Source: Spirochaetota bacterium (GTDB lineage Bacteria; Spirochaetota; UBA4802; UBA5550). Taken from it: 64,000 nt of DNA. This document shows, one piece after another, positions 20,677 to 51,005 of the stretch. The number at the start of each line of letters is the position of its first letter. Position 1 is the first letter of the stretch. The notes under the pieces are model-generated. The model was not told where the DNA came from and made no database searches. It saw nothing but the letters and a program-made list of their open reading frames with translations. The position numbers and the translations under genes are program-made. The stretch covers positions 372,001 through 436,000 of the forward strand of contig JAGNKX010000001.1 in assembly GCA_017999915.1 (NCBI GenBank). Direction: 5' to 3'.

Positions 20677-20811
20677 AGGATTATACTTCAAATGTACACC
20701 GGAGTAAAAAAATAGCAAGGAAATTTCAATTCCTGATTATGCTTGCAATTTAATCCCTCCCGGGATAGGGTATGTTATCGAAGCTGTGGCACAACTTCAG
20801 GAACGGCAACA

Positions 20812-21186
20812 ATGGAACGAAGGCTATATACCCGGATACCCTTTAACATTGAAACGATCATTCGCTTCAACGACAGGCCCATCCAGGGGACCGTCCTCAA
20901 TATCAGCCTCCATGGATTGTTCATCGATATCCCGGAGGCCCTGCCGGACAGGGCCCTGGTGGGCGTGGAAATCTCCATGGACAGCTCCGGTTCCCATAAA
21001 AGCCTGCTTCTGCCGGGGCTGGTGGTCCGCTCCGGATCGGGCGGCACCGCCGTCAAGCTCATGGAACTGGATCTAGAATCCTACACTGTTGTCCGGGACC
21101 TCATGATGGACCGGTCCATCACCCCGGAGGTCATCATGGACGAATTCTGCAGATTCATAGCCTGCGGCCAGGACCATTCCCTTTAA
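20812..21186 (+). CDS. Single-domain PilZ protein (c-di-GMP binding)
   Basis: Starting at ATG 20812 gives 124 residues. Both PilZ c-di-GMP-binding motifs are intact: R-L-Y-T-R (RxxxR) in the first ten residues and N-I-S-L-H-G ([D/N]xSxxG) about 30 residues on, followed by the usual beta-barrel strands. It should bind c-di-GMP in the cytosol and act as an adaptor; the partner is unknown. The C-terminal 40 residues (D-L-M-M-D-R-S-I-T-P-E-V-I-M-D-E-F) are probably helical. An in-frame start at 20743 would add residues before the RxxxR motif and lacks support. It diverges from the upstream lipoprotein and converges on the alpha-2-macroglobulin gene. Confidence 0.88.
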   Translation: MERRLYTRIPFNIETIIRFNDRPIQGTVLNISLHGLFIDIPEALPDRALVGVEISMDSSGSHKSLLLPGLVVRSGSGGTAVKLMELDLESYTVVRDLMMDRSITPEVIMDEFCRFIACGQDHSL

Positions 21187-21260: not shown

Positions 21261-24200
21261 TCAATCAACCCTGAGCCGCGAACCCTCCGAATGGGAGGTG
21301 AACTCCGGCGCGTACATGCACTGGATCGTTGTTATGCCTGCCGAGAAATCCCCCTTCAGACTCACCACCAGGGGATACTCGAACACGAAGGTCCCCTTGG
21401 GCAGGCGCTCCATGAAAAAGTGCGTGGCCGTGTCCTTGGTGCTCTCATAGTACCAGAGGCCGTCCTGGAAGCGGTGCCGGGACAATACGTTTTCCGGCTC
21501 CGTCCCTGCCGCGCGGAGGTCCTTCATGTGCACGTAATCCATGTCCCGGTCGGACCTGAGAATTATGCGCACCCTCACCTTGTCCCCCGGCTTGAGCTTC
21601 CTGTTCCCCGTCAGCTGCTCCAGCACCGGACCGCGGTCGGTGGAGGTGACAAGGAAAAACTTCTTCTCGAGCTTTAGCGGCGTTTCGTGGGGCGTGATCT
21701 TGTCCATCTGCTCGAAATACTGCCAGTAGAGCGCGCCCCAGGCGGGATTGCTGTTCGGGTTGACTACCTTCACGTTGCCCATTTCAGGCACAATCTCGTT
21801 CTTGTCCCAGCTGACCTTGAAGTATCCGGTCCCCGCCTCGGTGGCCGCGCCCATGGCGGCCGGGTCCACGGCACGGTCGTTGATCACTATCTGCGCCAGC
21901 GTGTCGTTCTTCAGCCAGTCCGATCCTCCCATGAGAAGGGCATAGCAGGCGTCGGTGGTGGCCTTGGTTGTGCTCCAGTGCTGGACCTGTTTCATCTTGA
22001 CGAGCCAGGTACGCATGTCGTCGACAGCCGCGGCGTCCCGGGCCACTTCGCTGAAGGCCTCGATCAGGAGCGCCTGGGTTTCGATGGGCGCCTGGTACCA
22101 CCAGTACCCTCCCACGTTTTCCTTCCAGTACATGCCCATCTCATCATTCTGTATGGCATGTTCCCTGAGGGACTCCATGATCTCCTGCGCCGGCTTTGCC
22201 TCGCCGAAGCGATGCAGGGCGATGGCCGCCAGGCCCTTGCCGTAGGGCCCTTCCTGGGGCCAGTATTTCACCGCCTGGCCCTTCCAGTAATCGAAGGCTT
22301 CTTTGCACTGCTGGGGCATGGCCGTATCCATGAAAAAGCTCCGTGTATACAGGTAATGGTACTGGATATAGCCGATATTCTTCTGCTTGAGATTTATCTT
22401 GTACCGCACCAGGTAGTCGTAATCCCTCTTCATCTCCCTGTCGATGAAGGCCACCGCCTTTCCGGTCATAGCCGATATTTTTTCCTTTGACGCGCTTCCG
22501 ACCCCCAGGACGTTGAGCTTGGCCAGGCCGGCCAGTATGTGCTGGGTGATATACCAGCTCTCGGGAAGGCCCGTGAACCAGGGCCATCCCCCGTTGGCCC
22601 CCTGCATCTGCCTGAGCTTTGAAAAGGCCCTGTCCAGCTCCCGGGCCATATGGTTCAGGTCGAAGAGGAGGGCGACTCGCTTCTTGTTCTGCTCCTCGTT
22701 TTTTCCGTTCAGGAGCCACGGCGTCTCCTGAAGTAAAACCGACTTCAGCTCCTCGTTCTTCTGCAGATTCGACAGGAGGGCGTCGCTGTTCTTCCACCGG
22801 TCGAAGACAGCCCTGACCTTGGGGCTGCTGTTGACGATATGGGACGCCAGGCTGTTGGAATAAAAGCGGCTGAACACCTGCTCCGAGCACTCGTGGGGGA
22901 ACTCCATCAGGTAGGGCAGCGCCTGCACCGCGTACCAGACCGGATTGGACGTGAATTCCAGGGTGAGCCGGTAGTGGGACAGGGTGGTTGACTCTTTCGA
23001 TTTGAGGAGCTTGGCGAAGGTGAAGTTTTTCGTCTGGTTCCCCCGCACCGGGAGCGGCATCGATTCCGTCACCATCATCCGGTTCGACAGGACCGGCAGG
23101 GTCGATTCCTCGCCGTCGCTGAAGCTCCCCGCCCGGGCAACGACCCGCCATGTCACGGCCTCCACCGATTCCGGCACTTTTACGCGCCAGGATACGGCCG
23201 TGTTTCCCTTTTCCGGCACGGAAAAATCCGACGGCCCGCCGTCATTGGAAAGCTCCCTGTCCAAAGGCTTCATGGTCGCCGCGTCAAAGAGCCGGAGTTC
23301 CGCCTTGCCGGCGAGCTTCCTGTCCGTCATGTTGGATATCTTCGTGCTTATGTAGACCGTGTCCCCTTCCCTGAGGAAGCGCGGCACGTTGGGCGTCACC
23401 ATGAGCTCTTTCTGTGTCACCACCTCGTTGGTAAAAACGACTGATTTAAGGTCCCTGGTGTGGGCAAACCCGAGGATTTTCCACCTGGTCAGGGCCTCCG
23501 GCGCCGTAAAGGATATGATAACCTCGCCCTTTTCATTGGTCATCAGGTGGGGATAGAAAAAGGCCGTCTCATTGAGGTTTTTCCGTATCTGCACGGCTCC
23601 TTCTCCGGTCCCTTTTTTATTTTCGCCGCCGATGACACTCAGGCTCTGCTCCCCGGCCGGCGCCGGCGCAGGTTCGTCCTTGCGTTTCGCCTTCTGTGGA
23701 GCCGCCTCTTTTTTATCGGTAATCCCCTCTTCCATGGCGTCAGCGGAGGCGGAATAATCCATGTCTTTCTTCCCCCCGCCCTTGTAATACCGGTATCCCC
23801 TGCCCCTGCTGTAGAAATACACGCCGAAGAGGTTCAGGTAATCGTGATACCTGTTATAGGAAGGATAATACTCATTCCAGCCGTTGGCGGCCTGTCGCGA
23901 CTGCTCAACGGCAAAGGTCGAATTGGAATGCCAGTATTCATAGGTATAAAAATAGGGATTCACGTTGAAAGACCAGTTATGGGGATAGAACGAATCGAGG
24001 GACGCGTCGTACATGGACGCGGCGATTTCGGCAGCGGCCATCTCCCCGCCGGGGCCTGTGATCTTTACGCGCCACTGCTCCTTTTCACCGGGATTCAGCC
24101 TGTTCCGGAAGGTCATGAACTCCGCCTTGAGCTCCTTGTTGGTCCAGGGCACCTGGATGGTCCCGTATCCGCTGTGGAGACGGTTGTCCCTGACCAGGGC

Positions 24201-27200
24201 ATAGCGGTAATGGATGTTGCCCCGGTCCTCTTCCCTGATCGGAATGGCGACGCGTTTTTTATTACCGTCAAGCTTTATGATCCTCTGTTCCGGTTTCGAA
24301 CCGTGGCGCAGGATATCGAAAAGTAGATAGGCATCGCGGGCGGCAGAGGCCACTAAAAAGACGCAATCGCTCCCTGGCTCCACGGAGGCATCCAGGGGCA
24401 TTATCGAAACATATTCGTTCCTGGAAAAGGCCCCGTCCTTCGGCTTGAACAGGGTCACTTGCCGCTGGTACCGGATCCTTTCGCCGTAGGAGTCCCTGGT
24501 CTCGATCTCCACCAGGTAATTGCCGTCGGGCCAGGAATGCACGTCACCGGCGGTGACGATCTTTTCCTTCTCAGTGTTGAAAGGGGCGCTGAAATATTTT
24601 CTTTCTATGCCCCGTGCCTGGACATCATCCTCATTCTTGTAGATGTCATGGGGAAAGCTTTTAATATATTCATCCTTTGTCATGACAAAGCGGTCCGGCC
24701 GCTCCCACAGGCGGGGCCGGAGGAGTCGCTCAGGCTCACTCATCCGCGAAATGGTGAGAGTGCCCCGGGCCGGCACGAACTCCCCGCTGTAGTTGACGCT
24801 GGAGAGCTTAAGGGCAAGATTCTTCGATGAATCGATGACGCCGCGCAGGTCGGGGATATCGACGATAAGGGACGTATACCCGGCCCTTACGCCGGCGCCG
24901 GCTCCATGGGTCTCCCCGTTGATGTCGGTCACGTCCGCATGCACCTGGTAATAAAAGGCCGGCTGCTCCGAGCGGGGGATGCCCTTGTCAGGCTGTGCCT
25001 CGAAGGTGAGAGCGAATTCACCCTTGCCATCGGTCTTCATCTCCCCCCTCTGCATGACCGTTTCCTTGCCGTTGTACCGCCAGTAGTACCATCCCGACCA
25101 GCGGTACATGAACCAGACCTTCCTCACGATGGTATACTTCACCACCGCGTCGGAGAGGGGGGCCCCGGAATAGGAGCGGGCGAAGCCCTTGACGGTCACC
25201 TTCTCACCGAGGCGGTAATTCCCCTTGACCGGCTCGAAGGCCGCCTCGAACTTGGGCCTTTTGTACTCCTCGACCCTTATGACGGCGCTCCCTGACCCGT
25301 TCCGGATGGTCATCTGTCCCGTGAGGACACCGGACGGGGCGGTGAAGGCGCCGCTCACCGTGCCGTACCGGTTCGACCGGAGCTTCACCTGGCCGACCCG
25401 CTGGTTGTTGTAATCGTAGAGCTCCACCGTGGTGTCCTGGTCCGGCAGGATCGCGTAACGCCGGTCGGCGTCGAGCCGCAGCAGTATCCCCTTGAAATAA
25501 ATCGTCTGGCCCGGCCGGTAGATCGAGCGGTCGGTGAAGAAATAACTCTGGTAATGGTTTCTCGCGCTTTCGCCGTAGGTGTAACTGTAAAATTCCGATG
25601 TCAGGCGGTCCCCGTTTTTCCGGAGGATAACGCTCAGGGTCCTGTAATAGCTGTCGCCGGTATCCAAGGGGAAGACCGCTGAGCCGTTCCTGTCCGTAAC
25701 CAGTTTCGCCGCCACGGTGCTGACATATCTGCTTTTCGCATAGTCGTACTTCCGCTCCATTATGGTGACGTTGACATCCCCGAGGGGCATCCCCGTTGCC
25801 CGGTCGAACACGTTGAAAACCGCTCCCTCCTTTTTCGACACATGGTGGGTGAAGCTCAGGTTTGATACCGCCATGGCCATGAAGGCCGCCGCGTTTTTGT
25901 CGTACGAAAAGGTTCGGTCCGTTCCGGCCAGGACCGCATAATAACCTTCATCCAGGGGCGGCACCCTGATCTCCGCCGCATGGTCCCGGAGGTCGCCGTC
26001 GTCAGGAAGGGCCACTTCCCATTCCTGGAGGGCCTTCATCTTCCGGAGCCGGTCAAGCTTGACCTCGGTCCTGTCATAGTTGTCGTTGAGGTACTCGTAG
26101 TCATCCACGGTCAGCCGCAGGGCCCTGAGGTAGATACGGTTCAGGTTCTTATACTTCACCAGGGCCCGGGAGGGGCTCCGGGGCACATTGACCTTCTCCG
26201 TGAGGAGAGAAAGGCTCTTGTCGATCGCCGTCAGGGGCCTGCACAGGAGCGCTCCCTCCGATTCCGGGAAGCGGCGGACCACGTCCCCGGCTATTTCAAC
26301 GGATTTCCTGATCGACCAGCGATGATCGGAGGGGTCTCCCTCCTTCCATTCCTGGCCCATGGCCCGGTACCACCGGGCGATCTCGTATGACACCAGGGCC
26401 GAGGAGGGATGGCCGGCGAGCCTCTTTTCAAGGGCCTCAAGGGATTTAAAATAAAGATAATCCTTGTCCGGGATGACCGACCTGTCGCGGACAAACTGGA
26501 GCCTTTTCAATTCCACGTCCGCCAGGGCCGCGGGGCCGCCGGGCAGGTCTTTCAGATGCAGCCGGGTCAGGTCCTGGAGGATGATCATCGCGTTGTAGCG
26601 GAGCGAGGTCGCATCCCGGGCCGTTATGGTCATGGCTGCGAACTCTTCAGCCGTCCCGAAATATCCGGCTGTATCGATTTCATAATCGTAGGCGGGCCTG
26701 GTGAGCTGGTTTTCATCGACCATGAAAAAATCAACGGCCCGGTGCGCGAGAAAATCGTACAGGGTGGGCCGGTACTCCCGGGGGGCGCTTCCACTGACCA
26801 GGATTGCGTCCATGAGGTCCAGGGGAATTCTTTTCAGATCATCGGGCCTCTCCAGGGCGCCGCGGTGCAGCTCGATGATGCGCCCCATGATCTTAGCGAG
26901 GCTCCAGGTGGAGACATCCCCATCCCTGGGGTTCGCCGTATCGGTCCGGCTGTAAAAGGTCCAGCGGTGGGCGGAAAAATAGTTCCAGTAGGCCTCGGCC
27001 ATGATCGAGCGGAGGACCTGCTTCTCCGGGAATGACGACGATAAAGCCTCCTGCTCCAGCATGCGGAGGATATCCGGGTGCTCCTTTTCGCCGATGGCCA
27101 TGAGGTACTTGACCCTGTGAATCTGGGCCTTGACGATCTGCGGAACATTGCGATCCTTTTTGGCGCGGCCGAGGATTTGTTCGACCTGCTCCAGGGCGGA

Positions 27201-27398
27201 GCGGGGCTTGCTCTTCCTGTCGAATTCAACGACAGCTTTCCAGTCCTCCGTATAGGGATTGAATTTCCCGGGAACGGTATATGATTCTCCAGCCGATATC
27301 CTGTTTTTAGCCAGGGAACTGCCCCCAGATATAGGGTCATAGAGCGGGACAAGGAGAGCCAGAGACAGGATGAGAGCGGCGCGTTTCAGGATCTTCAT
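21261..27398 (-). CDS. Bacterial alpha-2-macroglobulin-like protein with thioester motif
   Basis: This encodes 2045 residues with an N-terminal signal peptide (hydrophobic residues about 8-20) and no lipobox cysteine. The early part (to about 500) is helical and unlike E. coli YfhM. From about 520 come macroglobulin-type beta domains, including the MG2-like segment Y-F-F-T-D-R-S-I-Y-R-P-G-Q-T-I-Y-F-K-G. The central A2M region includes M-V-T-P-N-V-P-R-F-L-R-E-G-D. The thioester site is C1504-S-E-Q in F-P-H-E-C-S-E-Q-V-F-S-R, so covalent trapping of proteases is expected. A helical thioester domain and C-terminal receptor-like domain follow. Family members protect the cell envelope from proteases. 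No penicillin-binding protein 1c gene, the usual neighbour, is adjacent. Confidence 0.93.
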   Translation of the reverse strand: MKILKRAALILSLALLVPLYDPISGGSSLAKNRISAGESYTVPGKFNPYTEDWKAVVEFDRKSKPRSALEQVEQILGRAKKDRNVPQIVKAQIHRVKYLMAIGEKEHPDILRMLEQEALSSSFPEKQVLRSIMAEAYWNYFSAHRWTFYSRTDTANPRDGDVSTWSLAKIMGRIIELHRGALERPDDLKRIPLDLMDAILVSGSAPREYRPTLYDFLAHRAVDFFMVDENQLTRPAYDYEIDTAGYFGTAEEFAAMTITARDATSLRYNAMIILQDLTRLHLKDLPGGPAALADVELKRLQFVRDRSVIPDKDYLYFKSLEALEKRLAGHPSSALVSYEIARWYRAMGQEWKEGDPSDHRWSIRKSVEIAGDVVRRFPESEGALLCRPLTAIDKSLSLLTEKVNVPRSPSRALVKYKNLNRIYLRALRLTVDDYEYLNDNYDRTEVKLDRLRKMKALQEWEVALPDDGDLRDHAAEIRVPPLDEGYYAVLAGTDRTFSYDKNAAAFMAMAVSNLSFTHHVSKKEGAVFNVFDRATGMPLGDVNVTIMERKYDYAKSRYVSTVAAKLVTDRNGSAVFPLDTGDSYYRTLSVILRKNGDRLTSEFYSYTYGESARNHYQSYFFTDRSIYRPGQTIYFKGILLRLDADRRYAILPDQDTTVELYDYNNQRVGQVKLRSNRYGTVSGAFTAPSGVLTGQMTIRNGSGSAVIRVEEYKRPKFEAAFEPVKGNYRLGEKVTVKGFARSYSGAPLSDAVVKYTIVRKVWFMYRWSGWYYWRYNGKETVMQRGEMKTDGKGEFALTFEAQPDKGIPRSEQPAFYYQVHADVTDINGETHGAGAGVRAGYTSLIVDIPDLRGVIDSSKNLALKLSSVNYSGEFVPARGTLTISRMSEPERLLRPRLWERPDRFVMTKDEYIKSFPHDIYKNEDDVQARGIERKYFSAPFNTEKEKIVTAGDVHSWPDGNYLVEIETRDSYGERIRYQRQVTLFKPKDGAFSRNEYVSIMPLDASVEPGSDCVFLVASAARDAYLLFDILRHGSKPEQRIIKLDGNKKRVAIPIREEDRGNIHYRYALVRDNRLHSGYGTIQVPWTNKELKAEFMTFRNRLNPGEKEQWRVKITGPGGEMAAAEIAASMYDASLDSFYPHNWSFNVNPYFYTYEYWHSNSTFAVEQSRQAANGWNEYYPSYNRYHDYLNLFGVYFYSRGRGYRYYKGGGKKDMDYSASADAMEEGITDKKEAAPQKAKRKDEPAPAPAGEQSLSVIGGENKKGTGEGAVQIRKNLNETAFFYPHLMTNEKGEVIISFTAPEALTRWKILGFAHTRDLKSVVFTNEVVTQKELMVTPNVPRFLREGDTVYISTKISNMTDRKLAGKAELRLFDAATMKPLDRELSNDGGPSDFSVPEKGNTAVSWRVKVPESVEAVTWRVVARAGSFSDGEESTLPVLSNRMMVTESMPLPVRGNQTKNFTFAKLLKSKESTTLSHYRLTLEFTSNPVWYAVQALPYLMEFPHECSEQVFSRFYSNSLASHIVNSSPKVRAVFDRWKNSDALLSNLQKNEELKSVLLQETPWLLNGKNEEQNKKRVALLFDLNHMARELDRAFSKLRQMQGANGGWPWFTGLPESWYITQHILAGLAKLNVLGVGSASKEKISAMTGKAVAFIDREMKRDYDYLVRYKINLKQKNIGYIQYHYLYTRSFFMDTAMPQQCKEAFDYWKGQAVKYWPQEGPYGKGLAAIALHRFGEAKPAQEIMESLREHAIQNDEMGMYWKENVGGYWWYQAPIETQALLIEAFSEVARDAAAVDDMRTWLVKMKQVQHWSTTKATTDACYALLMGGSDWLKNDTLAQIVINDRAVDPAAMGAATEAGTGYFKVSWDKNEIVPEMGNVKVVNPNSNPAWGALYWQYFEQMDKITPHETPLKLEKKFFLVTSTDRGPVLEQLTGNRKLKPGDKVRVRIILRSDRDMDYVHMKDLRAAGTEPENVLSRHRFQDGLWYYESTKDTATHFFMERLPKGTFVFEYPLVVSLKGDFSAGITTIQCMYAPEFTSHSEGSRLRVD

Positions 27399-41691: not shown

Positions 41692-44292
41692 TTAATTGTT
41701 TTCGATACTCGCCGCCAGGGCCCCGGAAGCGTGTATCTCGCTGAAGGAATCGTGGATCCCAAGGAAAATATCCACGATGCCCGGATCGAACTGCGATCCG
41801 GAGCAGCGCACGATTTCCTTCAATGTAAAATTGTGGGACAGGGCTGTCCGATAGGGCCGCTCCGATGTCATCGCGTCATAGGCATCGGCAATGGCCATGA
41901 CTCGTGCCCCGATGGGGATATCGTCCTTGTACAGGGCGTTGGGGTATCCCTTGCCGTTGTAATGCTCATGGTGGGCGATGATGATCGACGCGACGTTGTT
42001 GAACTCCGTTATGGGCTTGATGATCAGTGCGCCGTTCACGGGATGGTTCTTGATCTGGGCGAACTCGCTATCCGTCAGCTTGCAGGTATTGTGCAATATC
42101 TCTTCGGGAACGGCTATCTTGCCGACGTCATGAAGAAGGGCGGCAAGCTCCAGGTCCTTGAGCTCATGGTCGGCAAAACCCATCTTGCGCGCCAGGGCCA
42201 TGGAGTACCTGCTCACGCGAAGGGAATGGTCCTTGGTGTAATTATCCTTGGCCTCGATCGTCGACACCAGGGACTTAACCATGGCAAGGAGAAGGATCCG
42301 CTGGCGGTCCACAAGGTCATCGGTCCGGACTTTCAGATTGTGATTTGCAAGGGCAAGGGCTTCCTCAATAGTCCGGGTCCGGAGGAGCGACCTGACCCGC
42401 GCCTTGAGTTCATCCGCGTCAAAGGGCTTTGCCAGGTAATCATTGGCCCCCGAATCTATTCCCGCCACCAGCATCTCGGAACCGGCCCGGGCCGTCACGA
42501 GGATAATCGGGATATGCTTCAGGGAAGGATCGCTCTTCACTTCGCGGCAGAAGGAATAGCCGTCCATTTCAGGCATCATCACGTCACATATGACCAGATC
42601 CGGGATATTCTCGCGGAGCATGGCAAGCCCTTTTCGTCCGGAATTGCAGAGGAGGAGATCGAACTCATCTTTAAGAAGGAAATGCATCAGCTTGAGAATA
42701 TCGGGATTATCATCAATGATCAGTATCGTATAATCATGGATCCCGCTCCGGTGTTCGTACGTTTCCAGATCAAGGCGCTGTTCAAGGTCGATGAGCTGCA
42801 GCTGCCGGTAATTGCTCACCACGTCGCTGACCTTGAGGCCCTCAACGTCGCTGGCCCGCTTCTTGTATTGCACCGGCTGCTCCGCTTTCCTCCTGTCCCG
42901 CACATCCTCATGGATATGGTCATCACCCTTTTTGATCTGGACGATAAAGCGCGAGCCCCTTCCCAGAGCGCTCTGGGCCCGGATTGACCCGCCATGGAGC
43001 TCGACGATTTCTTTTGCGAGGGACAATCCCAGCCCGGTGCCCTCCCTGCTCCTGGTGGATGATCCGTCCACCTGGGCAAAGCGGTCGAAAATGGTTTCGA
43101 GCATATCGGCGGGTATTCCTTCCCCCGTGTCCTCGACGACAAGCTCCACTTCATTCTCGGAATTGTCGATTGACAGGATGATCCTTCCCCCGGCCGCGGT
43201 GAACTTGATCGCGTTATGAAGGAGATTGATAATGACCTTTTCAAACTGCTCCGTGTCGATCATGACCCGGATCCCGTCTTTCATCTGGTACTGGAAATAG
43301 AGCTTCAACCCGCGGGTTCCCGCCATGTGCTGCACTGTGGCCACGATATCTTCGCAGAACTTAATAAGCTCAACTTCCTGGAAGTTGAGGCGCATCCTCC
43401 CCGCTTCCAGCTTTGCGAAATCGAGAAGGTTGTTGATCTGTTTCAGCAACCTGAGGCCGTTGTTTTGCATGATGGTCAGGGTGTTCCGCACATTTTCCGA
43501 AACAACGCCCTTCGGGTCATTGATCAGGGCTCCAAGGGGCGCCAGTATGAGTGTAAGGGGCGTGCGCAGCTCATGGCTCACATTGGTGAAGAATTCGGTC
43601 TTCAGGCGGTCATGGGTAAGGAGCTTCTGGTTTGACTCGGCGAGCTCATCGGTCAGCATCTCCAAGTCGTCGTTGGCTTTTTGAAGGTTAAGACGTGCTT
43701 CTAATTGATTCAGTCTCGTTATATTCTTGAAATAGGTTCCAAGAACCGACAAAAACATTGTAGTTATTAAGAAAAAATTATTTGAAATAATAATATTATA
43801 ATCGGTTGTTCGATTAATCAACAGCGGAGAAATATAATAAGCATATATTATTAAACAAGTGACCATGACTTTCTTTACTGTTAGAGGTAATACAAAAATC
43901 ATAAGCAGCACTGTCAGGTTAATGCCTGCATAATACATGCTGGAAGGGCCACCGGTCAGATGACACATGGTTGCAATGTCAATTCCGCTCACCATCATCA
44001 TAATCATCGCGATCTTTTGAGTATTGTTTTTTACTAATTTTGTATTCAGCGATAAATAAATGATGATGCACATGACAACAACAACAATTCGCAGAGCCCA
44101 GAGCATTTGGTATTTATCAGGATACACAAAAATATCCAACGCTCCAAATATAGGATAAAAAATAATACCTATATAACAGGTAACCTTGATCATGTCTAGA
44201 CCAAGTATTTTAGTCTCCTGCTGGAATTTTTCGCGAAGATAGCCATCTTCTATTTTTTCATTTATATATTGTTTTAACATGTTAATATACAT
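41692..44292 (-). CDS. Membrane hybrid histidine kinase with receiver and HD-GYP phosphodiesterase domains
   Basis: This encodes 866 residues. Six probable membrane helices fill residues about 33-185, then a coiled coil. The HisKA phospho-acceptor is His240 in V-S-H-E-L-R-T-P; the ATPase domain (about 340-455) has N360, D-T-G-E-G and G-T-G-L-G-L. A receiver domain (about 522-640) carries Asp570 in I-C-D-V-M-M-P. The C-terminal HD-GYP domain (about 672-855) has H721-D722 and G782-Y-P, so c-di-GMP hydrolysis is expected. The combination suggests that a membrane signal drives phosphorelay to the receiver and gates c-di-GMP breakdown. It lies 68 bases after the radical SAM gene on the same strand, so it may belong to the PilZ cluster. 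The membrane-domain DNA is more A+T-rich than the rest. Confidence 0.92.
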   Translation of the reverse strand: MYINMLKQYINEKIEDGYLREKFQQETKILGLDMIKVTCYIGIIFYPIFGALDIFVYPDKYQMLWALRIVVVVMCIIIYLSLNTKLVKNNTQKIAMIMMMVSGIDIATMCHLTGGPSSMYYAGINLTVLLMIFVLPLTVKKVMVTCLIIYAYYISPLLINRTTDYNIIISNNFFLITTMFLSVLGTYFKNITRLNQLEARLNLQKANDDLEMLTDELAESNQKLLTHDRLKTEFFTNVSHELRTPLTLILAPLGALINDPKGVVSENVRNTLTIMQNNGLRLLKQINNLLDFAKLEAGRMRLNFQEVELIKFCEDIVATVQHMAGTRGLKLYFQYQMKDGIRVMIDTEQFEKVIINLLHNAIKFTAAGGRIILSIDNSENEVELVVEDTGEGIPADMLETIFDRFAQVDGSSTRSREGTGLGLSLAKEIVELHGGSIRAQSALGRGSRFIVQIKKGDDHIHEDVRDRRKAEQPVQYKKRASDVEGLKVSDVVSNYRQLQLIDLEQRLDLETYEHRSGIHDYTILIIDDNPDILKLMHFLLKDEFDLLLCNSGRKGLAMLRENIPDLVICDVMMPEMDGYSFCREVKSDPSLKHIPIILVTARAGSEMLVAGIDSGANDYLAKPFDADELKARVRSLLRTRTIEEALALANHNLKVRTDDLVDRQRILLLAMVKSLVSTIEAKDNYTKDHSLRVSRYSMALARKMGFADHELKDLELAALLHDVGKIAVPEEILHNTCKLTDSEFAQIKNHPVNGALIIKPITEFNNVASIIIAHHEHYNGKGYPNALYKDDIPIGARVMAIADAYDAMTSERPYRTALSHNFTLKEIVRCSGSQFDPGIVDIFLGIHDSFSEIHASGALAASIENN

Positions 44293-44360: not shown

Positions 44361-45695
44361 CTAGTGAATATTTTTATATATAGTTTTAAGATAATTTGAT
44401 CGCTTATCAAATGAATCCTTGTTAAAAACCTGGCTGTAAGCCCATAAAAATCCTTCTTCAAGATCTTCCACCGTTAAATTTTTTGGCTTGAATAGGACAT
44501 CTAAAAATGTGCACCTATCCCAGAAAGGCTCCTGCGCCAGCATACGCTGCTCATCATGAAGTCTTTTAAATAAACGTGAACCAGGTAATGGGGTGGCAAT
44601 GGTGAGCTGCCCGGTAATGTTATGTTCATCCATAAAAGTGACAACATTTTTAAAAACCCGTTTATCATCATTGTCGAGGCCAAAAATAAAAGATCCGAAA
44701 ACAATAATCCCGTGTTTTTGAATATTATCAATATTCCTGCCATAATTTACCAGTTGTCTGTACTTCCACGAGCTTTTATTCATTGTTTTCAGGTTTTCCG
44801 GATTGATACTTTCCAAACCGATCAATAAGGTTAAACATCCGCTTTCATACGCCATGGTCAGCAATTCATCATCATCTCCTATGCCTATATCTGATTGCGC
44901 CCACCAGCGAATGTTCAGCCTTTTCAGAAGAGTGAGTAATTCTCTTGAATGCTTTTTATTAACAAATAGATTATCATCGGAAAAGAGCAGTATCTTTCCG
45001 GGAAAATATTTTTTTATTTCAATAATTTCTGATTCAATCTGAGCCATCGTCTTTGTCCTGAACCTGTTCCCGTAAATCTTCGTAACAAGGCAAAACTCGC
45101 AATCATGGGGGCAACCCCTGCTTGTCTGGATCGGAACCATGTTGTAGTATAAATGTGGATCCATAAAATAATTTTTTTTATGTAATAGATCATACCTCGG
45201 AATCGGAGACATCGTTAAATCGACAGGAACTTTATCATCACTATAATAAAACTTTCGTTCACAATTGCTCTCATAATCAGAAAGAAATTGAGGCCAGAGT
45301 CGTTCCGCTTCGCCTATTATTACCGTATCCACAAATCGGGCCGCCTCCTCCGGCATAACCGAAGCATGAATTCCTCCCATGACGACATAGACCCCTCTTT
45401 TTCTGAACTCAGCAGCCACATTGTATGCATGCAGAGCCTCTTGTGTCATAGCCGTAATTCCTACAATATCATAGCCCTTATTGTAATCTATATCCTCAAA
45501 ATTTTCATCAATATATGATATTTCAATTTCCCGAGGAGTCAACGCGGCAATAGTCATAATACTGAGGCTTGGGGTGTAATATGCTTTCAAAAAGGCATTT
45601 GTTTTATCAAGAACTTCCTTAATGCGGGGAGTCTTCGACCAAGTATAGCGTTTGTTGACAAGCAAACCAATATGTTGGATCGATCTTTTTTTCAT
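44361..45695 (-). CDS. B12-binding-domain radical SAM protein
   Basis: This encodes 444 residues. The N-terminal part (about 35-140) has a cobalamin-binding-type Rossmann domain: D-I-V-G-I-T-A-M-T and V-V-M-G-G-I-H-A-S-V-M-P-E-E. The radical SAM cluster is C195-P-H-D-C199-E-F-C202. A C-terminal helical part follows. Relatives use SAM and often cobalamin to methylate or rearrange unactivated carbons in lipids, hopanoids or natural products. Its ATG overlaps the acyl carrier protein gene by four bases, so the substrate may be ACP-bound; that is inference. The gene is clearly more A+T-rich than its surroundings. Confidence 0.88.
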   Translation of the reverse strand: MKKRSIQHIGLLVNKRYTWSKTPRIKEVLDKTNAFLKAYYTPSLSIMTIAALTPREIEISYIDENFEDIDYNKGYDIVGITAMTQEALHAYNVAAEFRKRGVYVVMGGIHASVMPEEAARFVDTVIIGEAERLWPQFLSDYESNCERKFYYSDDKVPVDLTMSPIPRYDLLHKKNYFMDPHLYYNMVPIQTSRGCPHDCEFCLVTKIYGNRFRTKTMAQIESEIIEIKKYFPGKILLFSDDNLFVNKKHSRELLTLLKRLNIRWWAQSDIGIGDDDELLTMAYESGCLTLLIGLESINPENLKTMNKSSWKYRQLVNYGRNIDNIQKHGIIVFGSFIFGLDNDDKRVFKNVVTFMDEHNITGQLTIATPLPGSRLFKRLHDEQRMLAQEPFWDRCTFLDVLFKPKNLTVEDLEEGFLWAYSQVFNKDSFDKRSNYLKTIYKNIH

Positions 45696-45964
45696 GATAT
45701 ATCTTTTTCAAGGACCACAGTATGAATTATTTCGATAAAGTCTCCAACCGTTTCCACGCCGAGTAGTATTGATTCATCAATCGCCACATTATAAAATTTT
45801 TCAATATTCGCAACAATTTCAATTGCCATCAGAGAATCTATCCCCAACTCCTCCCTGATTAATACGTCATCACCTATACCGGATTGATCCATCCGTGTTA
45901 TCCTTGATACAATTGCTATTATATTTTGGCGGACATCATTGGCTTTAGTATTCTTCATATTCAT
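45692..45964 (-). CDS. Acyl carrier protein
   Basis: This encodes 90 residues of a discrete carrier protein. The phosphopantetheine attachment site is Ser44 in G-I-D-S-L-M, in a normal four-helix ACP pattern. The N-terminus is extended by about ten residues relative to AcpP. It is not near fab genes, so it is likely a dedicated carrier for this cluster. The start has AGGA at moderate spacing, with a second in-frame ATG two codons on. It overlaps the radical SAM gene by four bases (ATGA) and follows the AMP-ligase-like gene by 43 bases. Confidence 0.92.
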   Translation of the reverse strand: MNMKNTKANDVRQNIIAIVSRITRMDQSGIGDDVLIREELGIDSLMAIEIVANIEKFYNVAIDESILLGVETVGDFIEIIHTVVLEKDIS

Positions 45965-46007: not shown

Positions 46008-47453
46008 TTAAGATTGGATGCTGTTATGAACCGCCATCAATTCATATTCTTCATCATCAAGAGGCGTCATCACCTTCGGAATCTTGTATCGTGCAATAAT
46101 ACCTTCAAGATTCTTTTTTATCATCTGTATATTCTCATCAAAATCATTTCCGGAATCGATTTCGATTCCCGCAGAGAGAATATTGTCAATGCATGCGACT
46201 TCTGCTTCACGGACCTTCGGATTCATTAACAGCGCCCTTCGTATCTCTTCCAGGTCAACCATGTTGCCCTTGTATTTTCTCGTCCCCTTCTGTTCCCTGA
46301 TAAAAACCAGGTGGCCCTCTTCCATTTTCCCGATATCTCCTGTTCTGAACCACCCATCCGAAAAAGCATCGGTCGTCTCAGCCGGCCTGCGGAAGTACCC
46401 TTTTGCCATGTGAGGCGTCCGTATCAGGATTTCTCCGGCGCCGTCGGTTCCCGGCGAATCTATCCTGCATTCCAGTCCCCGGCAGACCGGGCCTATGGTT
46501 CCCGGCCGCCCCTGGCCCCTGATGTTTCTGCTTACGGGCGTGAATTCCGTAAGGCCATAGCCGTGAAGATATTCCACGTTGAATGCTTCACGCACTTGTT
46601 CAAAGAGCTCACCGGCCATGACGCTTCCTCCCGAAACAAAAACCTCCAGTGACGGCAGGTGTATTGAACCATCCTTCAGCCTGTACATCAATTCGTACAC
46701 TTCAGGCACTGCCGTAATGATCGATATGTCAAATTGCCTGACGATCTTGAAGAGATGGAGTGGGTTCACCGTTCCTGAAATGACGGCCGTGATACGGTTC
46801 AGGAGCGGCACACAGAGACACCCGACAAGGGGGAAGATGTACGAAAATGGAAGAACCACCAGCATCCTGTTGCCCGCCGCAGGCCTGAGTCCTTCCACCA
46901 GAGCCGCCGCTCCCTCAACATACTGGCTATGGGGCACCAGCGCTCCCAGGGGATAACCGAAGCCGCGATAGGTATAATTGATTGTTGCTATGGATTCATC
47001 GATATCAGCGGGTTCAAACTGTTGAGATGAATCCCCGCCATGGATCTGTTTCAAGATACCGTTTTTTCTCTGGATCACGATTCTTCCCGCGCAATAGGAT
47101 TCCACAATGGGAAGGTGCTTGGCCTCCGCGATAATAGCATGGGGATCCGCGTTGGCCATCAGTTCATCCAGCTCGATTGTGCGAAACGCAAGGTTGACCG
47201 GTACCAGTTTCGCCCCAATTTCGATAAGCGCTAAAAACAGGGCGACAAAATCAACCGAGTTTTCAAGAAAGATCGCGGCTATGAACCCCCGTATAATTCC
47301 TGAACCCTTCAGGAATTCTTTCATGGAGACAATTCTTGACTTCAATTCCCCCGCTGACACGAAGAGAGGCGCATCTCCTGTGGACAGATCGATAACAGCA
47401 GGGTGATTCCCCCACGTTTCCAGCGACTCATGTATTTGTTTAACAATATTCAT
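46008..47453 (-). CDS. AMP-dependent acyl ligase-like protein with altered catalytic motifs
   Basis: This encodes 481 residues with the fold and several motifs of the acyl-CoA synthetase/luciferase (ANL) superfamily. The A5 motif is H-G-Y-G-L-T-E, A7 is G-W-F-R-T-G-D-I-G, and A8 is near K-Y-K-G-N-M-V-D-L-E-E-I. The A3 phosphate-binding loop is unusual: N-Y-T-Y-R-G-F-G-Y-P-L-G replaces Y-T-S-G-T-T-G-x-P-K-G, losing the lysine and Ser/Thr residues. The C-terminal catalytic lysine (G-K) is also absent. It might activate or transfer an acyl chain to the neighbouring ACP by a modified mechanism, or be a binding or scaffolding relative. It starts 18 bases after the PilZ fusion stop, so the two are co-transcribed. 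Confidence 0.8.
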   Translation of the reverse strand: MNIVKQIHESLETWGNHPAVIDLSTGDAPLFVSAGELKSRIVSMKEFLKGSGIIRGFIAAIFLENSVDFVALFLALIEIGAKLVPVNLAFRTIELDELMANADPHAIIAEAKHLPIVESYCAGRIVIQRKNGILKQIHGGDSSQQFEPADIDESIATINYTYRGFGYPLGALVPHSQYVEGAAALVEGLRPAAGNRMLVVLPFSYIFPLVGCLCVPLLNRITAVISGTVNPLHLFKIVRQFDISIITAVPEVYELMYRLKDGSIHLPSLEVFVSGGSVMAGELFEQVREAFNVEYLHGYGLTEFTPVSRNIRGQGRPGTIGPVCRGLECRIDSPGTDGAGEILIRTPHMAKGYFRRPAETTDAFSDGWFRTGDIGKMEEGHLVFIREQKGTRKYKGNMVDLEEIRRALLMNPKVREAEVACIDNILSAGIEIDSGNDFDENIQMIKKNLEGIIARYKIPKVMTPLDDEEYELMAVHNSIQS

Positions 47454-47471: not shown

Positions 47472-50400
47472 TTACTTTTTGATCCCGGTCACGATTACCG
47501 CCTGGGGCGGGCTTCCCATTGATAAATGTATTTCCATATTTACAAAGCCCGCTTTTCTCATCATGCCGGCGATTTCCTCGCCGGAATAGAACCTGAAATA
47601 TCCGTCCTCCTCCAGCTGAAAGAGCGATGCCGCCTCGTTGAGCATGGTTCTGGCATCGGCAAGATCAACGTCCCTTTTCTCCGAATCGTATTCATCACGA
47701 TCAAGGTTCTGCACTTTGTTTATATAATTTGTGAAAATGACCGATATATCGCTGTCAGGTCTCATGGAAGAGACAAGCAACCGTCCCTCCGGCTTAAGAA
47801 GCCTGTAAAATTCATGAATTATCTCATCGGGATTAAAGAGATACGAAATAAGAAGACTCGCCGAGATTTTGTGGAACGATTCGTCGTGAAAGCCCATGCG
47901 CACATCACGGGTATTGTCCCCGAATTTGAGACATGTAAAATCCAGGTCGGTCGTCCTGATGTCATGGAGCTCCTCTGAACCTGATCCGTTGATCCTTTTA
48001 TTACAAGATGTCTTCAAGTCGTCAGGCTTCAGTGTGCCGGAAATGTATCGTGCGGCGCGGTTGATATCGATGATAGCGCAATAATCATCATCATTCAAGC
48101 ACGCGCGCAGGTACCCCCGGGAATGTTCGCTTATCGGCACACCGCGCATGATGCTGGCAATAACCTCCGAGTTCAGTCTCACCAGATTATCAATGGTGCT
48201 GTTCCTCAACCCTTCTATTCGATTTCTTAAAAACTCATACCCCAGGGAACCGTCTTCCATGAACCGCTTCACGGGAAGGAGACGGTTCGGCTCAAGATTC
48301 CGCTGCAGATAGGTAATACGGCTCGGGATGAGGGGGCCGTGGGTGCGTTTCAGCTGCTCGATTTTTTCCCTGGTCCTGCCAAGGGCTTCCGGGACCAGAT
48401 CCGCCAGCACCAGATTGGCCCTGCCGAGATCGAGCCCCTGCGACGCGCTGTCATCAATCATTCGCTCAATGAAGATGCCGGTTCCGCATCCCATGTCCGC
48501 CATGGATTCGCCGTTTTTCAGGTCCAGGAGCCTTCCCTGTAGCGACAGGAACTCCCTGAATTCATCGATATTCCGGTACACATCATAGCCGGCGCAGTTC
48601 CGGTCCCCGCCGACGAGATATTCCTTCCAGTATACCCCCACATCGACATCATCCTGCGCGACAAGCCTCTCGCGCTCCCCGGTGATCATGGCTACCATTC
48701 GTTCCCGGTCTGGATTCATAGGACGAATCGTCTGGCCATTGAGATAATGATATATCATGCGCGTCACAATTTTAAATGTCCGGATCGCGTCATCACTGGA
48801 CCGGAGATTATGGCCGGTGGGTATTTCAATTACTTCACGGGAGCCCTTTGACCGGACGCTCATGAGATCCCGGATCTCCCTCTCAACGACCCAGCGGTCA
48901 TACTTGCCGAAAATCCAGGATACCGGAATGGCTATGCGTGCCATGTCATGGCGCGCGTCGGCGAGATAGGCATATCTGGTGTCGATCAGGTCCCTCGCGG
49001 TGGTATCAAGGTTCAGAATCTGCCCCAACACGCCGGAGAGTCCATTCTGTATGCCGTTCCGCGCGTTATCGATGATGTCGATACCGCCGGTAATATTATT
49101 GAAGGAGCTCCGGGCGCAGGTGACGCCCATGACGTTGATCAGATAGCTGACCCGCTTATCCTTCACCGCCAGTTTCCTCGCATCCAGCGCCGACATGCTG
49201 AAGGCGACAATGACGACCTCCGAAGGCTTGAACATGGCATTGTGATGCACGAAGTCCATGGTCGCTTCCAGATCGTCAAGGCCCTGGCTGATGCGGTAGT
49301 TGAGCATCTCGTAGCCCCGCTTGGGGCACATCTGATCCCGGCAGCTTTCCCCCGGCCTGTTGATGCCGTCATACCGGATGGTCACGATATCCCTGCCGAA
49401 GCGCCCGAAGTTTTCTATCAATGTCGCCACGAGGGGAGCCAGCGCCTCCTTCTTTTTCCCAAAGGCCGGGGGGAGGATGACAACCGGCACCTTGCCCACC
49501 GCGCCGGTATGGTTCAGGAGGGCCACGATTTCTTTCCCATCCCTGTTCGCATATCGCACGATATCGGAAACGATCCTGGAACTGCCGGGAAATGGGCGTT
49601 TCAATGATCCTTTGCCCTTGTTCCACTGGGTCAGGCTGAAACGTTTATAAATGTAATCCTTGCGCCTGATGCCTGCTTCAATGCCTATCTGCACCATCAT
49701 CCCTTCATCATAAAGGCCTACTTCTTTGATATGTCGTATTTCCCCAAAGGCATCAAGACCCATATCTTTATTGAATGTGTAGGTGACCGACTGGCCCAGC
49801 TGGATCTGCTCTCTATCGAAGTTATTAAGCTTCACATTACATGAAAAGCCGCGGCGGCTTATGTTGACCAGCTCGCCCCGAAGTCTTCCGATGGGGGAAT
49901 CCTCAAGCTCAAGGGAAATATCGATCCCCCCGCTGATGTATTTTCTCTGGCATGATCTCTTGTCAGACTGGTGGATCACCGACGGCAGGGCAAAGGCAAT
50001 GCTTGTCGGGCCGGACTCCCTGATATCCGTGGTAAAATAGTAACTTGAACCGTGCAGGTAAAAGGAGCAATACACCTGGTGATGCTTTTTCAACTCACAA
50101 TCAATGACTTCTTTCTGCGATGATGTGGTGAATAATTTTTTCTTTGTGTCAATAGTCCTCATCTTCAAGACAAACATGATGATGCTTTTGTCAAAAAGGA
50201 CATTCATCGTCCTTTTTTCTTTTTTCAGAAGATTGAAGAGGGCTACGATTGTTTCATGATTTTTTATCAGGGTATCATTGGCGGCGACCTGTTCGTTCCT
50301 CCTTTCCTGTATCGTTTTAATGGCGGTGCTTGTGGCCGATTTGAGGATGAAATTCTGAATCCTGGTGGAATCAATATCCGAGATGGATTTGAAGCACAAT

Positions 50401-51005
50401 CCGGCCCTGTTCGTATCGCCCTTATTTCCCCGGATAACATAGGAGACTGATCCCTCGGCGGTAATGCCTCGCCGGTCCCCGGGCAGATTCACCCCGATGG
50501 TGATGGATTCGCGTGTATTCAGGATTCCCTTGTAACTGACAAGGCACCCTTCAGTCGAGATGTTATCTATTGAAATAATGGAGACCCCGTCTTTATCGCT
50601 GGAGATTCCGGTGAGGCTGCATGATATGCGCGGGATAATCCTCATGTCGGATGTCCCGTATTCATTCTTTATCCTGGTGAAGTTCACATTCCTTATAAAG
50701 TTGTCGATAAGGATCATCTGCGCGTCCGTCTGACAGGAGAACTCGATTCCCAGGACATGCTCGTCTTCTTCAGTGTCCGCTTTATTGCTCCGAACTATTT
50801 TGCAGGGAATCGGAACGTTCTCTGAATCCAGGGGAAGCATGAATGCCATCCTGTGCACGGACAGGTGGGATACCGGAACATTGACGACAACCTGGATGCC
50901 GCTGTTGCTGATATCTATGGATTTACCGATGAGGGTCTGTCCTTCAGCGACAAGCTCCACCTGCTTTTCATAGGATACCCTGGCATGTTTTCTGTTATTG
51001 GTCAT
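47472..51005 (-). CDS. Triple PilZ domain - alpha/beta hydrolase - methyltransferase fusion protein
   Basis: This encodes 1177 residues with no signal peptide. PilZ domain 1 (about 4-112) has R5-K-H-A-R9 and D31-x-S33-x-x-G36. Domain 2 (about 120-225) has R122-I-I-P-R126 and N148-x-S150-x-x-G153. Domain 3 (about 345-450) has R350-S-C-Q-R354 and N381-x-S383-x-x-G386. All three retain both c-di-GMP motifs. A LuxD-like alpha/beta hydrolase follows (about 495-755), with Ser603 in A-F-S-M-S-A and likely partners Asp703 and His732. A SAM-methyltransferase domain (about 790-1177) has D837-M-G-C-G-T-G843 and L-L-K-P-E-G-R-L-L-V-S-S, with an insertion of roughly 150 residues between these motifs. It leads an operon with AMP-ligase-like, ACP and radical SAM genes. 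Function is inferred: c-di-GMP-controlled transfer or hydrolysis plus methylation of an acyl or similar substrate. Confidence 0.85.
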   Translation of the reverse strand: MTNNRKHARVSYEKQVELVAEGQTLIGKSIDISNSGIQVVVNVPVSHLSVHRMAFMLPLDSENVPIPCKIVRSNKADTEEDEHVLGIEFSCQTDAQMILIDNFIRNVNFTRIKNEYGTSDMRIIPRISCSLTGISSDKDGVSIISIDNISTEGCLVSYKGILNTRESITIGVNLPGDRRGITAEGSVSYVIRGNKGDTNRAGLCFKSISDIDSTRIQNFILKSATSTAIKTIQERRNEQVAANDTLIKNHETIVALFNLLKKEKRTMNVLFDKSIIMFVLKMRTIDTKKKLFTTSSQKEVIDCELKKHHQVYCSFYLHGSSYYFTTDIRESGPTSIAFALPSVIHQSDKRSCQRKYISGGIDISLELEDSPIGRLRGELVNISRRGFSCNVKLNNFDREQIQLGQSVTYTFNKDMGLDAFGEIRHIKEVGLYDEGMMVQIGIEAGIRRKDYIYKRFSLTQWNKGKGSLKRPFPGSSRIVSDIVRYANRDGKEIVALLNHTGAVGKVPVVILPPAFGKKKEALAPLVATLIENFGRFGRDIVTIRYDGINRPGESCRDQMCPKRGYEMLNYRISQGLDDLEATMDFVHHNAMFKPSEVVIVAFSMSALDARKLAVKDKRVSYLINVMGVTCARSSFNNITGGIDIIDNARNGIQNGLSGVLGQILNLDTTARDLIDTRYAYLADARHDMARIAIPVSWIFGKYDRWVVEREIRDLMSVRSKGSREVIEIPTGHNLRSSDDAIRTFKIVTRMIYHYLNGQTIRPMNPDRERMVAMITGERERLVAQDDVDVGVYWKEYLVGGDRNCAGYDVYRNIDEFREFLSLQGRLLDLKNGESMADMGCGTGIFIERMIDDSASQGLDLGRANLVLADLVPEALGRTREKIEQLKRTHGPLIPSRITYLQRNLEPNRLLPVKRFMEDGSLGYEFLRNRIEGLRNSTIDNLVRLNSEVIASIMRGVPISEHSRGYLRACLNDDDYCAIIDINRAARYISGTLKPDDLKTSCNKRINGSGSEELHDIRTTDLDFTCLKFGDNTRDVRMGFHDESFHKISASLLISYLFNPDEIIHEFYRLLKPEGRLLVSSMRPDSDISVIFTNYINKVQNLDRDEYDSEKRDVDLADARTMLNEAASLFQLEEDGYFRFYSGEEIAGMMRKAGFVNMEIHLSMGSPPQAVIVTGIKK

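Follow-up and report, generated by a model that had tools for sequence, protein, structure and literature searches.

A spirochaete protein joining three PilZ domains to a LuxD-like hydrolase and a methyltransferase, and the conserved operon that it heads

Results

The window analysed here, a stretch of 64,000 nucleotides, carries on its minus strand a genuine open reading frame (47472..51005) that starts with ATG and encodes a protein of 1177 residues, the tri-PilZ enzyme (TRI), with the order PilZ1-PilZ2-[YcgR-N]-PilZ3-LuxD-like alpha/beta hydrolase-class I methyltransferase. The initial annotation had described a 1177-residue protein with three PilZ domains, a hydrolase and a methyltransferase; profiles and predicted folds bear this architecture out, and every motif or catalytic residue that it named lies where it had been placed (R5/R9, R122/R126 and R350/R354 with their D/NxSxxG partners; S603, D703 and H732; D837-MGCGTG). 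What it overlooked was a YcgR-N domain between PilZ2 and PilZ3 and the membership of the gene in a conserved operon, and these two are the source of most of the functional information. A chance fusion or an assembly artefact is ruled out by full-length TRI relatives in independent genomes. The protein has no convincing transmembrane (TM) segment, only a single weak hydrophobic stretch inside the hydrolase. The structure models, built from 5-sequence alignments, are of modest confidence: the mean pLDDT is 61.5 over the half with the PilZ domains and 51.0 over the catalytic one.

All three PilZ domains carry the RxxxR and D/NxSxxG motifs for c-di-GMP: PilZ1 in residues 3-118 (50652..50999, minus strand; R5xxxR9, D31xS33xxG36), PilZ2 in residues 119-226 (50328..50651, minus strand; R122xxxR126, N148xS150xxG153) and PilZ3 in residues 350-451 (49653..49958, minus strand; R350xxxR354, N381xS383xxG386). 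When each domain is scored separately in the genome, their matches to Pfam PilZ (PF07238) reach 46.6, 29.6 and 23.0 bits, all above the curated cut-off of 22.5. That the segments might not be PilZ barrels had been named as an outcome that would overturn the initial annotation, and in the predicted structure all three do fold as such barrels (residues 3-118, 122-226 and 353-451), with Z of 12.7 against 5y6g, 12.3 against 4xrn_C and 9.8 against 4hg6_A. The motifs are retained at overall identities down to about 33-37%, in 17/17 relatives for PilZ1, in 17/19 for PilZ2, where the two exceptions carry Q in place of D/N, and in 20/20 for PilZ3. By sequence alone PilZ3 is a marginal assignment, but it is supported by the predicted fold and by a motif kept in all those relatives.

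The domain between PilZ2 and PilZ3 is a YcgR-N (PilZN)-like barrel without the c-di-GMP motif (residues 241-349; 49959..50285, minus strand), which matches 5y6h with Z 12.2 and an rmsd of 2.3 over 104 residues. It directly precedes PilZ3, as in the YcgR module, and residues 243-450 align as a two-domain pair with MrkH/YcgR/PP4397 at Z 13-14. Pfam PilZNR is found at E 0.054 in one family member, and the YcgR-N/PilZ3 profile, run against the sequences of the PDB, gave nothing at E 1; it was the fold search that settled the identity of the pair. PilZ proteins are often adaptors, as is MapZ on CheR1 (PMC12564702), and a protein without a convincing TM segment could be recruited, so that c-di-GMP might simply place a constitutively active TRI at a membrane or polymer site, with no allostery in its PilZ domains. 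We consider such docking quite improbable, however, as a YcgR-type PilZN-PilZ pair fused in cis and abutting the hydrolase is the layout that would be expected for ligand-driven movement of domains.

The LuxD-like alpha/beta hydrolase occupies residues ~480-760 (48726..49568, minus strand) and is matched by Pfam Acyl_transf_2 at 4.9e-6 and by NCBIfam LuxD at 1.7e-5; this last score falls short of the equivalog cut-off (24.3 vs 420 bits), and for this reason the domain is termed LuxD-like and not LuxD. Its nucleophile elbow, AFSMSA (of the form AxSxS), replaces GxSxG, and the triad S603/D703/H732 is invariant in 20 relatives. The best sequence relative in the PDB is 1THT, the LuxD myristoyl-ACP thioesterase, at a profile E of 0.054, with S603 opposite S114 and D703 opposite D211, and H732 outside the aligned stretch; a Foldseek search with the predicted hydrolase also finds 1tht, at E 1.4e-7. 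The kinship to LuxD is remote by sequence. Among the domains of TRI the hydrolase is the best conserved (44-76% identity), with a mean of 0.67, against 0.38-0.53 in the barrels of PilZ type.

The class I SAM methyltransferase follows at residues ~790-1177 (47475..48638, minus strand), with a match to Pfam Methyltransf_23 of 6.2e-9, over the cut-off; its motif I (D837xGCGTG) and D869, the acidic residue that ends beta2, are invariant among the relatives that cover them. The insertion that the initial annotation had reported in this domain is present, although its length, given there as about 150 residues, comes to ~120 (~905-1030; 47916..48293, minus strand) by the gap in the Pfam profile, whose positions 44 to 78 stretch over residues 885 to 1040. 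It is mainly helical, with helices around residues 920-990 at pLDDT 65-86, and is probably a substrate-binding lid. The methyltransferase end of the model, at pLDDT of about 25-45, is not interpretable.

Downstream of TRI, on the same strand, lie an unusual AMP-binding ligase homologue (46008..47453), an acyl carrier protein (ACP; 45692..45964), a B12-binding radical SAM enzyme (44361..45695) and a membrane sensor (41692..44292), with intergenic distances of, in turn, 18 bp, 43 bp, an overlap of 4 bp and 68 bp. The order TRI, ligase, ACP and sensor, with TRI first, is found in 15/15 operons that can be judged from their contigs; the radical SAM gene, placed between the ACP and the sensor, is optional (11/15, missing from 4/15). 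A scan for promoters and terminators returned 27 promoter-like sites against 15.7 expected, with none singled out, and no c-di-GMP riboswitch or other Rfam element was found in the window at the gathering threshold.

The ligase, a homologue of the acyl-CoA/ACP ligases of the ANL superfamily, matches Pfam AMP-binding (PF00501) at 2.4e-45 but lacks two of the hallmarks of an adenylating enzyme: in 17/17 members the P-loop is rewritten to TYRGxGxxxG, against the A3 consensus TSGTTGxPKG, and the C-terminus stops at YK[IV]P (YKIP in the window), short of the catalytic A10 lysine. It is therefore doubtful that the ACP is loaded in a simple reaction driven by ATP. A use of TYRG-type ligases elsewhere was considered and rejected: a DNA pattern for TYRGxGYPxG, which does not detect the variants of GTLVG type in the G360 clade, had its only matches in the four genomes of the genus that carry TRI and in one other (G129), the latter by chance, as the site lies within a carB-like ORF and no TYRG-bearing ORF exists there. 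A ligase without canonical adenylation motifs indicates that decay or repurposing does occur in this operon, and the catalytic domains of TRI could likewise have degenerated, leaving a pure c-di-GMP-dependent regulator or scaffold; this is very unlikely, given that the Ser/Asp/His triad and the SAM motif are invariant in all relatives and that no domain of TRI is better conserved than the hydrolase.

The ACP matches the NCBIfam acyl carrier protein at 4.5e-8 and has its phosphopantetheine serine in GIDS[LI] (DS motif in 15/15), and the radical SAM enzyme, of HpnJ/BchE/ladderane type by its profile matches, keeps CxxxCxxC in 11/11. Exosortase A-associated clusters include an AMP-ligase and hydrolases. 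As the ligase here matches TIGR03098 (9.9e-24) and the radical SAM enzyme the lipid-type families HpnJ (2.6e-31) and rSAM_ladder_B12, the ligase, the ACP, the hydrolase and the methyltransferase might together serve the acyl modification of a surface lipid or polysaccharide of the envelope, which c-di-GMP would switch when cells attach, with no free molecule made. Those scores nonetheless lie far under the curated cut-offs (84 vs 592, 109 vs 578 and 74 vs 360 bits, respectively), none of the operon's genes was recognised as a glycosyltransferase, exosortase or flippase, and conservation of the flanking genes ends at the genus level, all of which makes surface modification decidedly unlikely.

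The sensor combines about six TM segments with HisKA-HATPase, receiver and HD-GYP phosphodiesterase domains, as indicated by profiles, TM prediction and motifs. Every complete copy keeps the H of the kinase, the D of the receiver and the HD and GYP motifs, with HDxGK and H[HQ]ExxxGxGYP in the HD-GYP domain, where Gln replaces the second His outside the genus. A loop in the TM region carries H(x)2[GE]GxxSxYYxG, which departs from the GGxxNPF of RegB (the window has HLTGGPSSMYYAG, the other copies mostly GGxxSPYY), so that the likeness is one of position only.

Relatives of TRI, full-length or cut by contig ends, occur in 22 genomes of uncultured and little-studied spirochaetes from 6 families and 8 genera; a confinement to one genus is thus rejected. 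In members of the genus without TRI (G002, G004) the orthologue of the sensor is missing as well, and the operon is gained or lost as a unit within the genus. A search of PLSDB for plasmid carriage gave no match. A scan of named genomes yielded three matches, which are uninformative on other phyla, since its two patterns fit close relatives only.

This linkage could also suit a diffusible acyl-signal circuit, similar in working to the phc (PhcB methyltransferase, PhcS kinase) and rpf (an acyl signal, RpfC and the HD-GYP protein RpfG) systems. TRI, ACP and ligase would make a signal derived from a fatty acid, which may be a methyl ester, the six-TM kinase-HD-GYP would be its receptor and c-di-GMP would feed back on synthesis. 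Acyl or methyl chemistry is always paired in one operon with a multi-TM hybrid kinase-HD-GYP, the entire unit comes and goes together, and the PhcB methyltransferase yields methyl 3-hydroxymyristate, for which the sensor is the kinase PhcS (PMC8578825, PMC11960443). However, the resemblance to PhcB, PhcS, RpfF and RpfC is drawn from working principle, the kinase loop is at least as close to the RegB quinone motif as to any acyl-signal receptor, and the operon has no exporter, so that such a circuit appears unlikely.

Discussion

The domain identities, the conservation of active-site and ligand motifs, the operon linkage and the co-loss are observations of the present analysis; from them we infer c-di-GMP binding, acyl-ACP catalysis, the order of the steps, the direction in which control runs and the nature of the product. 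The reading that we prefer, to which we give an even chance, is that TRI is a c-di-GMP-responsive acyl-processing enzyme at the head of a small biosynthetic operon with its own c-di-GMP-lowering sensor. The steps could have been: (i) the operon would load an acyl group onto its dedicated carrier protein; (ii) in some lineages, the carrier-bound group would be modified by the B12 radical SAM enzyme; (iii) the LuxD-like hydrolase of TRI would release or transfer it, and the C-terminal methyltransferase would methylate the product; (iv) c-di-GMP at PilZ1, PilZ2 and PilZ3 would turn the neighbouring catalytic domains on or off, with the YcgR-N/PilZ3 pair, directly ahead of the hydrolase, as the likely transducer; (v) and finally, a signal at the membrane would act on the six-TM hybrid kinase, whose HD-GYP would bring c-di-GMP down and thereby reset TRI.

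The constant company of an acyl carrier and a c-di-GMP-destroying sensor suggests that c-di-GMP acts directly as a switch on the synthesis of an acyl-derived (fatty) molecule, although the operon linkage of a phosphodiesterase does not prove its control of TRI. Allosteric control of small-molecule chemistry, which the initial annotation took the direct fusion to imply, is plausible, and gains in plausibility from the conservation and the operon. Rather unlikely, in our estimate, is the fuller proposal of a self-contained spirochaete acyl-signal/lipid circuit, in which c-di-GMP would gate the synthase via three PilZ sites and the YcgR module, a product- or redox-sensing kinase-HD-GYP would close the feedback, and the ligase would work without the canonical adenylation lysine.

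The known PilZ effectors act for the most part on motility or polysaccharide machines. TRI unites c-di-GMP sites with two enzyme domains of the type that acts on carrier-bound acyl groups, and across six families of spirochaetes it is encoded beside a dedicated c-di-GMP phosphodiesterase. Should the switch be real, c-di-GMP control would reach lipid or small-molecule synthesis inside one polypeptide, and TRI would be a natural multi-site c-di-GMP-responsive enzyme that points to an acyl product. The ligase, conserved although it lacks the catalytic lysine, poses an enzymological puzzle of its own.

No published description of the TRI architecture was found in the literature searched, and within that scope the earlier statement that no named system has it holds. 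The Phc and Rpf systems, likened by working principle, encode acyl or methyl-ester chemistry together with a membrane kinase, with an HD-GYP output in Rpf; we know of no PilZ-gated synthase in either. RegB has six TM segments and a conserved GG loop ahead of its kinase (GGxxNPF), and the operon kinase a similar, not identical, motif (HxxGGxxSPYYxG); unlike RegB, it has a receiver and an HD-GYP phosphodiesterase fused behind. LuxD shares with the TRI hydrolase a non-GxSxG elbow and the aligned Ser and Asp, and is its nearest solved sequence relative, but it stands alone, with LuxC/LuxE as partners, and the similarity to the fused domain is weak. YcgR/FlgZ/MotI have the same PilZN-PilZ pair as residues 241-451 of TRI (5y6f Z 13.2, 5y6h Z 12.2), whereas YcgR acts as a flagellar brake and has no enzyme domains.

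Enzymes under PilZ control are already known, namely BcsA and, in trans, MapZ-CheR1. In the latter, c-di-GMP and PilZ control a SAM methyltransferase (PMC12564702), and 5xly and 5y4r are among the fold matches of TRI; there, however, two proteins act in trans on chemoreceptor methylation, while TRI is one polypeptide with a UbiE/BioC-like methyltransferase that bears an insertion. The BcsA cellulose synthase, like TRI, has PilZ fused to a catalytic domain, which in BcsA is activated by c-di-GMP, and its PilZ fold is matched by PilZ3 and PilZ1 (Z 9.8-11.8). In contrast, BcsA joins a single PilZ domain to a membrane glycosyltransferase with a polymer product, and TRI joins three PilZ domains and a YcgR-N to domains of acyl- and methyl-transfer type, with no convincing TM segment.

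Architecture of the tri-PilZ enzyme

The gene of the tri-PilZ enzyme (TRI) occupies 47472..51005 of the window on the minus strand, begins with ATG and encodes 1177 aa, in which Pfam detects PilZ three times, the LuxD family Acyl_transf_2 at residues 542-725, and a methyltransferase in two pieces, 837-885 and 1040-1157. The three PilZ domains proposed by the initial annotation hold up, as, scored separately in the genome, they all pass the cut-off of 22.5 bits, with 46.6, 29.6 and 23.0, and the residues it had named were all found at the positions it gave. It had also placed an insertion of about 150 residues in the methyltransferase; the insertion is present, but profile positions 44-78 are spread over residues 885-1040, and its size is therefore about 120. 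Counting the three in TRI, the genome has 15 PilZ matches, of which 12 lie outside it; within the window, a stand-alone PilZ protein of 147 aa is encoded at 20743-21186 (plus strand).

An AlphaFold2 model of residues 1-466, with five orthologues in the input, had a mean pLDDT of 61.5, and domains in this regulatory half were assigned from its Foldseek matches, which were then re-aligned. In the model, PilZ1 (3-118) aligns with the YcgR PilZ domain 5y6g (Z 12.7, rmsd 3.1), PilZ2 (122-226) with 4xrn_C (Z 12.3, rmsd 2.1) and PilZ3 (353-451) with the BcsA PilZ domain 4hg6 (Z 9.8), so that structure prediction, the check proposed for the PilZ fold, returns PilZ structures for all three segments (Z 9.8-12.7); residues 241-349 align over 104 residues with the YcgR-N domain 5y6h (Z 12.2, rmsd 2.3). 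From these matches the regulatory half is predicted to be PilZ-PilZ-(YcgR-N)-PilZ. Taken as a unit, residues 243-450 match the two-domain proteins MrkH, PP4397 and YcgR (Z 13-14), and the large rmsd of 10-14 A probably reflects a differing arrangement of the two domains. The catalytic half was modelled at lower confidence (mean pLDDT 51.0), the methyltransferase insertion being predicted as partly helical (about 920-990, pLDDT 65-86).

The hydrolase part of the model matches alpha/beta hydrolases. One of its best matches is the solved LuxD thioesterase 1THT (E 1.4e-7), whose TMq of 0.28 tops the 50 matches listed, and 1THT is also the best solved sequence relative, a weak one (E 0.054), of a profile of five relatives. 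In that alignment S603 lies opposite LuxD S114 and D703 opposite D211, S114 and D211 being catalytic residues of LuxD, and both proteins carry an A-x-S-x-S elbow instead of GxSxG. Since TRI misses the NCBIfam LuxD cut-off (24.3 vs 420 bits), the hydrolase is, judged by sequence, LuxD-like and not LuxD.

Distribution and conservation

Full-length TRI was found in three of the five same-genus genomes among 59 relatives (57-64% identity); one more copy, a distant one (genome G360, 35% identical), came from a sample of 393 genomes of the phylum, and a hydrolase profile search gave copies in 18 of the 46 genomes of G360's order, G360 included, two of these copies being contig-edge fragments. The search within Spirochaetota came to 22 genomes, 8 genera and 6 families; the relatives that bear names are uncultured Spirochaetes MAGs, and the phylum-sample genomes yielded no hydrolase match outside these groups. 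In an alignment of 20 members, with motifs counted over rows ungapped at those columns, all c-di-GMP motif residues (R, R, D/N, S/T, G) are kept in PilZ1 (17/17), in 17 of 19 members for PilZ2, the other two having Q for D/N, and in PilZ3 (20/20); S603, D703, H732, DxGCGTG and D869 are invariant, and conservation is lowest in YcgR-N (mean 0.38) and highest in the hydrolase (0.67). The retention of these motifs supports selection on all three putative ligand sites and both predicted active sites.

The operon and its inheritance

On the 3′ side of TRI lie, after 18 bp, an AMP-ligase gene (46008-47453, minus), then, after 43 bp, an ACP gene, next a B12 radical SAM gene overlapping the ACP stop and, 68 bp away, a hybrid kinase-receiver-HD-GYP (41692-44292, minus). 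The order TRI, ligase, ACP, kinase-HD-GYP recurs in 15/15 loci with a long enough contig. Eleven of these 15 operons include the radical SAM gene; loci L072, L079, L080 and L084 lack it, which suggests that product tailoring differs by lineage. The genes flanking the operon are common to the genus, not to G360. The kinase orthologue is absent from the TRI-less genus members, G002 and G004, and present in those that bear TRI (68-74% identity), so the operon is gained or lost as one unit; pairwise distances of TRI and of the ligase correlate at 0.82. Elsewhere in the window are a class I (enterobacterial-type) adenylate cyclase, here in a spirochaete (1483-4215, minus; Pfam Adenylate_cycl, 1.9e-54), and a bacterial alpha-2-macroglobulin-like protein of 2045 aa (21261-27398, minus).

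The ACP serine is kept in 15/15 copies and the radical SAM CxxxCxxC in 11/11. The ligase, in the window copy and its 16 relatives (17/17), has the P-loop T-Y-R-G-x-G-x-x-x-G, whereas that of the ANL-type superfamily (motif A3) reads T-S-G-T-T-G-x-P-K-G, and its C-terminus, again in 17/17, lies shortly past Y-K-[IV]-P and immediately ahead of motif A10, which contains the catalytic lysine. With this lysine missing, ATP-dependent activation of a free fatty acid becomes a less likely role for the ligase, which may transfer a group that is already activated or act in some other way. Across the phylum sample, the form TYRGxGYPxG occurs only alongside TRI, bar one match in a carB-like ORF, rejected as chance.

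The five to eight hydrophobic segments predicted in the kinase are most simply about six transmembrane helices, and they are accompanied by a conserved loop, HxxGGxxSPYYxG (GGPSSMYYAG in the window copy); no complete copy lacks the kinase His, the receiver Asp or the HD-GYP motifs. The loop is placed like the quinone motif GGxxNPF of the quinone-sensing kinase RegB (PMC8191878), but is not identical in sequence.

Proposed mechanism and known systems

The simplest reading is a scheme of c-di-GMP-gated acyl chemistry, in which carrier-bound acyl groups would undergo, as last steps, release or transfer by the TRI hydrolase and methylation by its C-terminal domain, c-di-GMP would gate TRI through its PilZ sites, and the sensor kinase-HD-GYP would set the local c-di-GMP level; what goes past domain identity, conservation and linkage we infer. 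The initial annotation knew of no named system with such an architecture, and the searched literature, outside which most subscription journals lie, yielded no paper on a fusion of PilZ with hydrolase and methyltransferase domains, nor on this operon. PilZ control of a methyltransferase is described for MapZ-CheR1 (PMC12564702), where PilZ acts in trans, whereas in TRI it is fused to the methyltransferase. PilZ-fused enzymes as such are already known, BcsA being one; the operon is unusually coherent.
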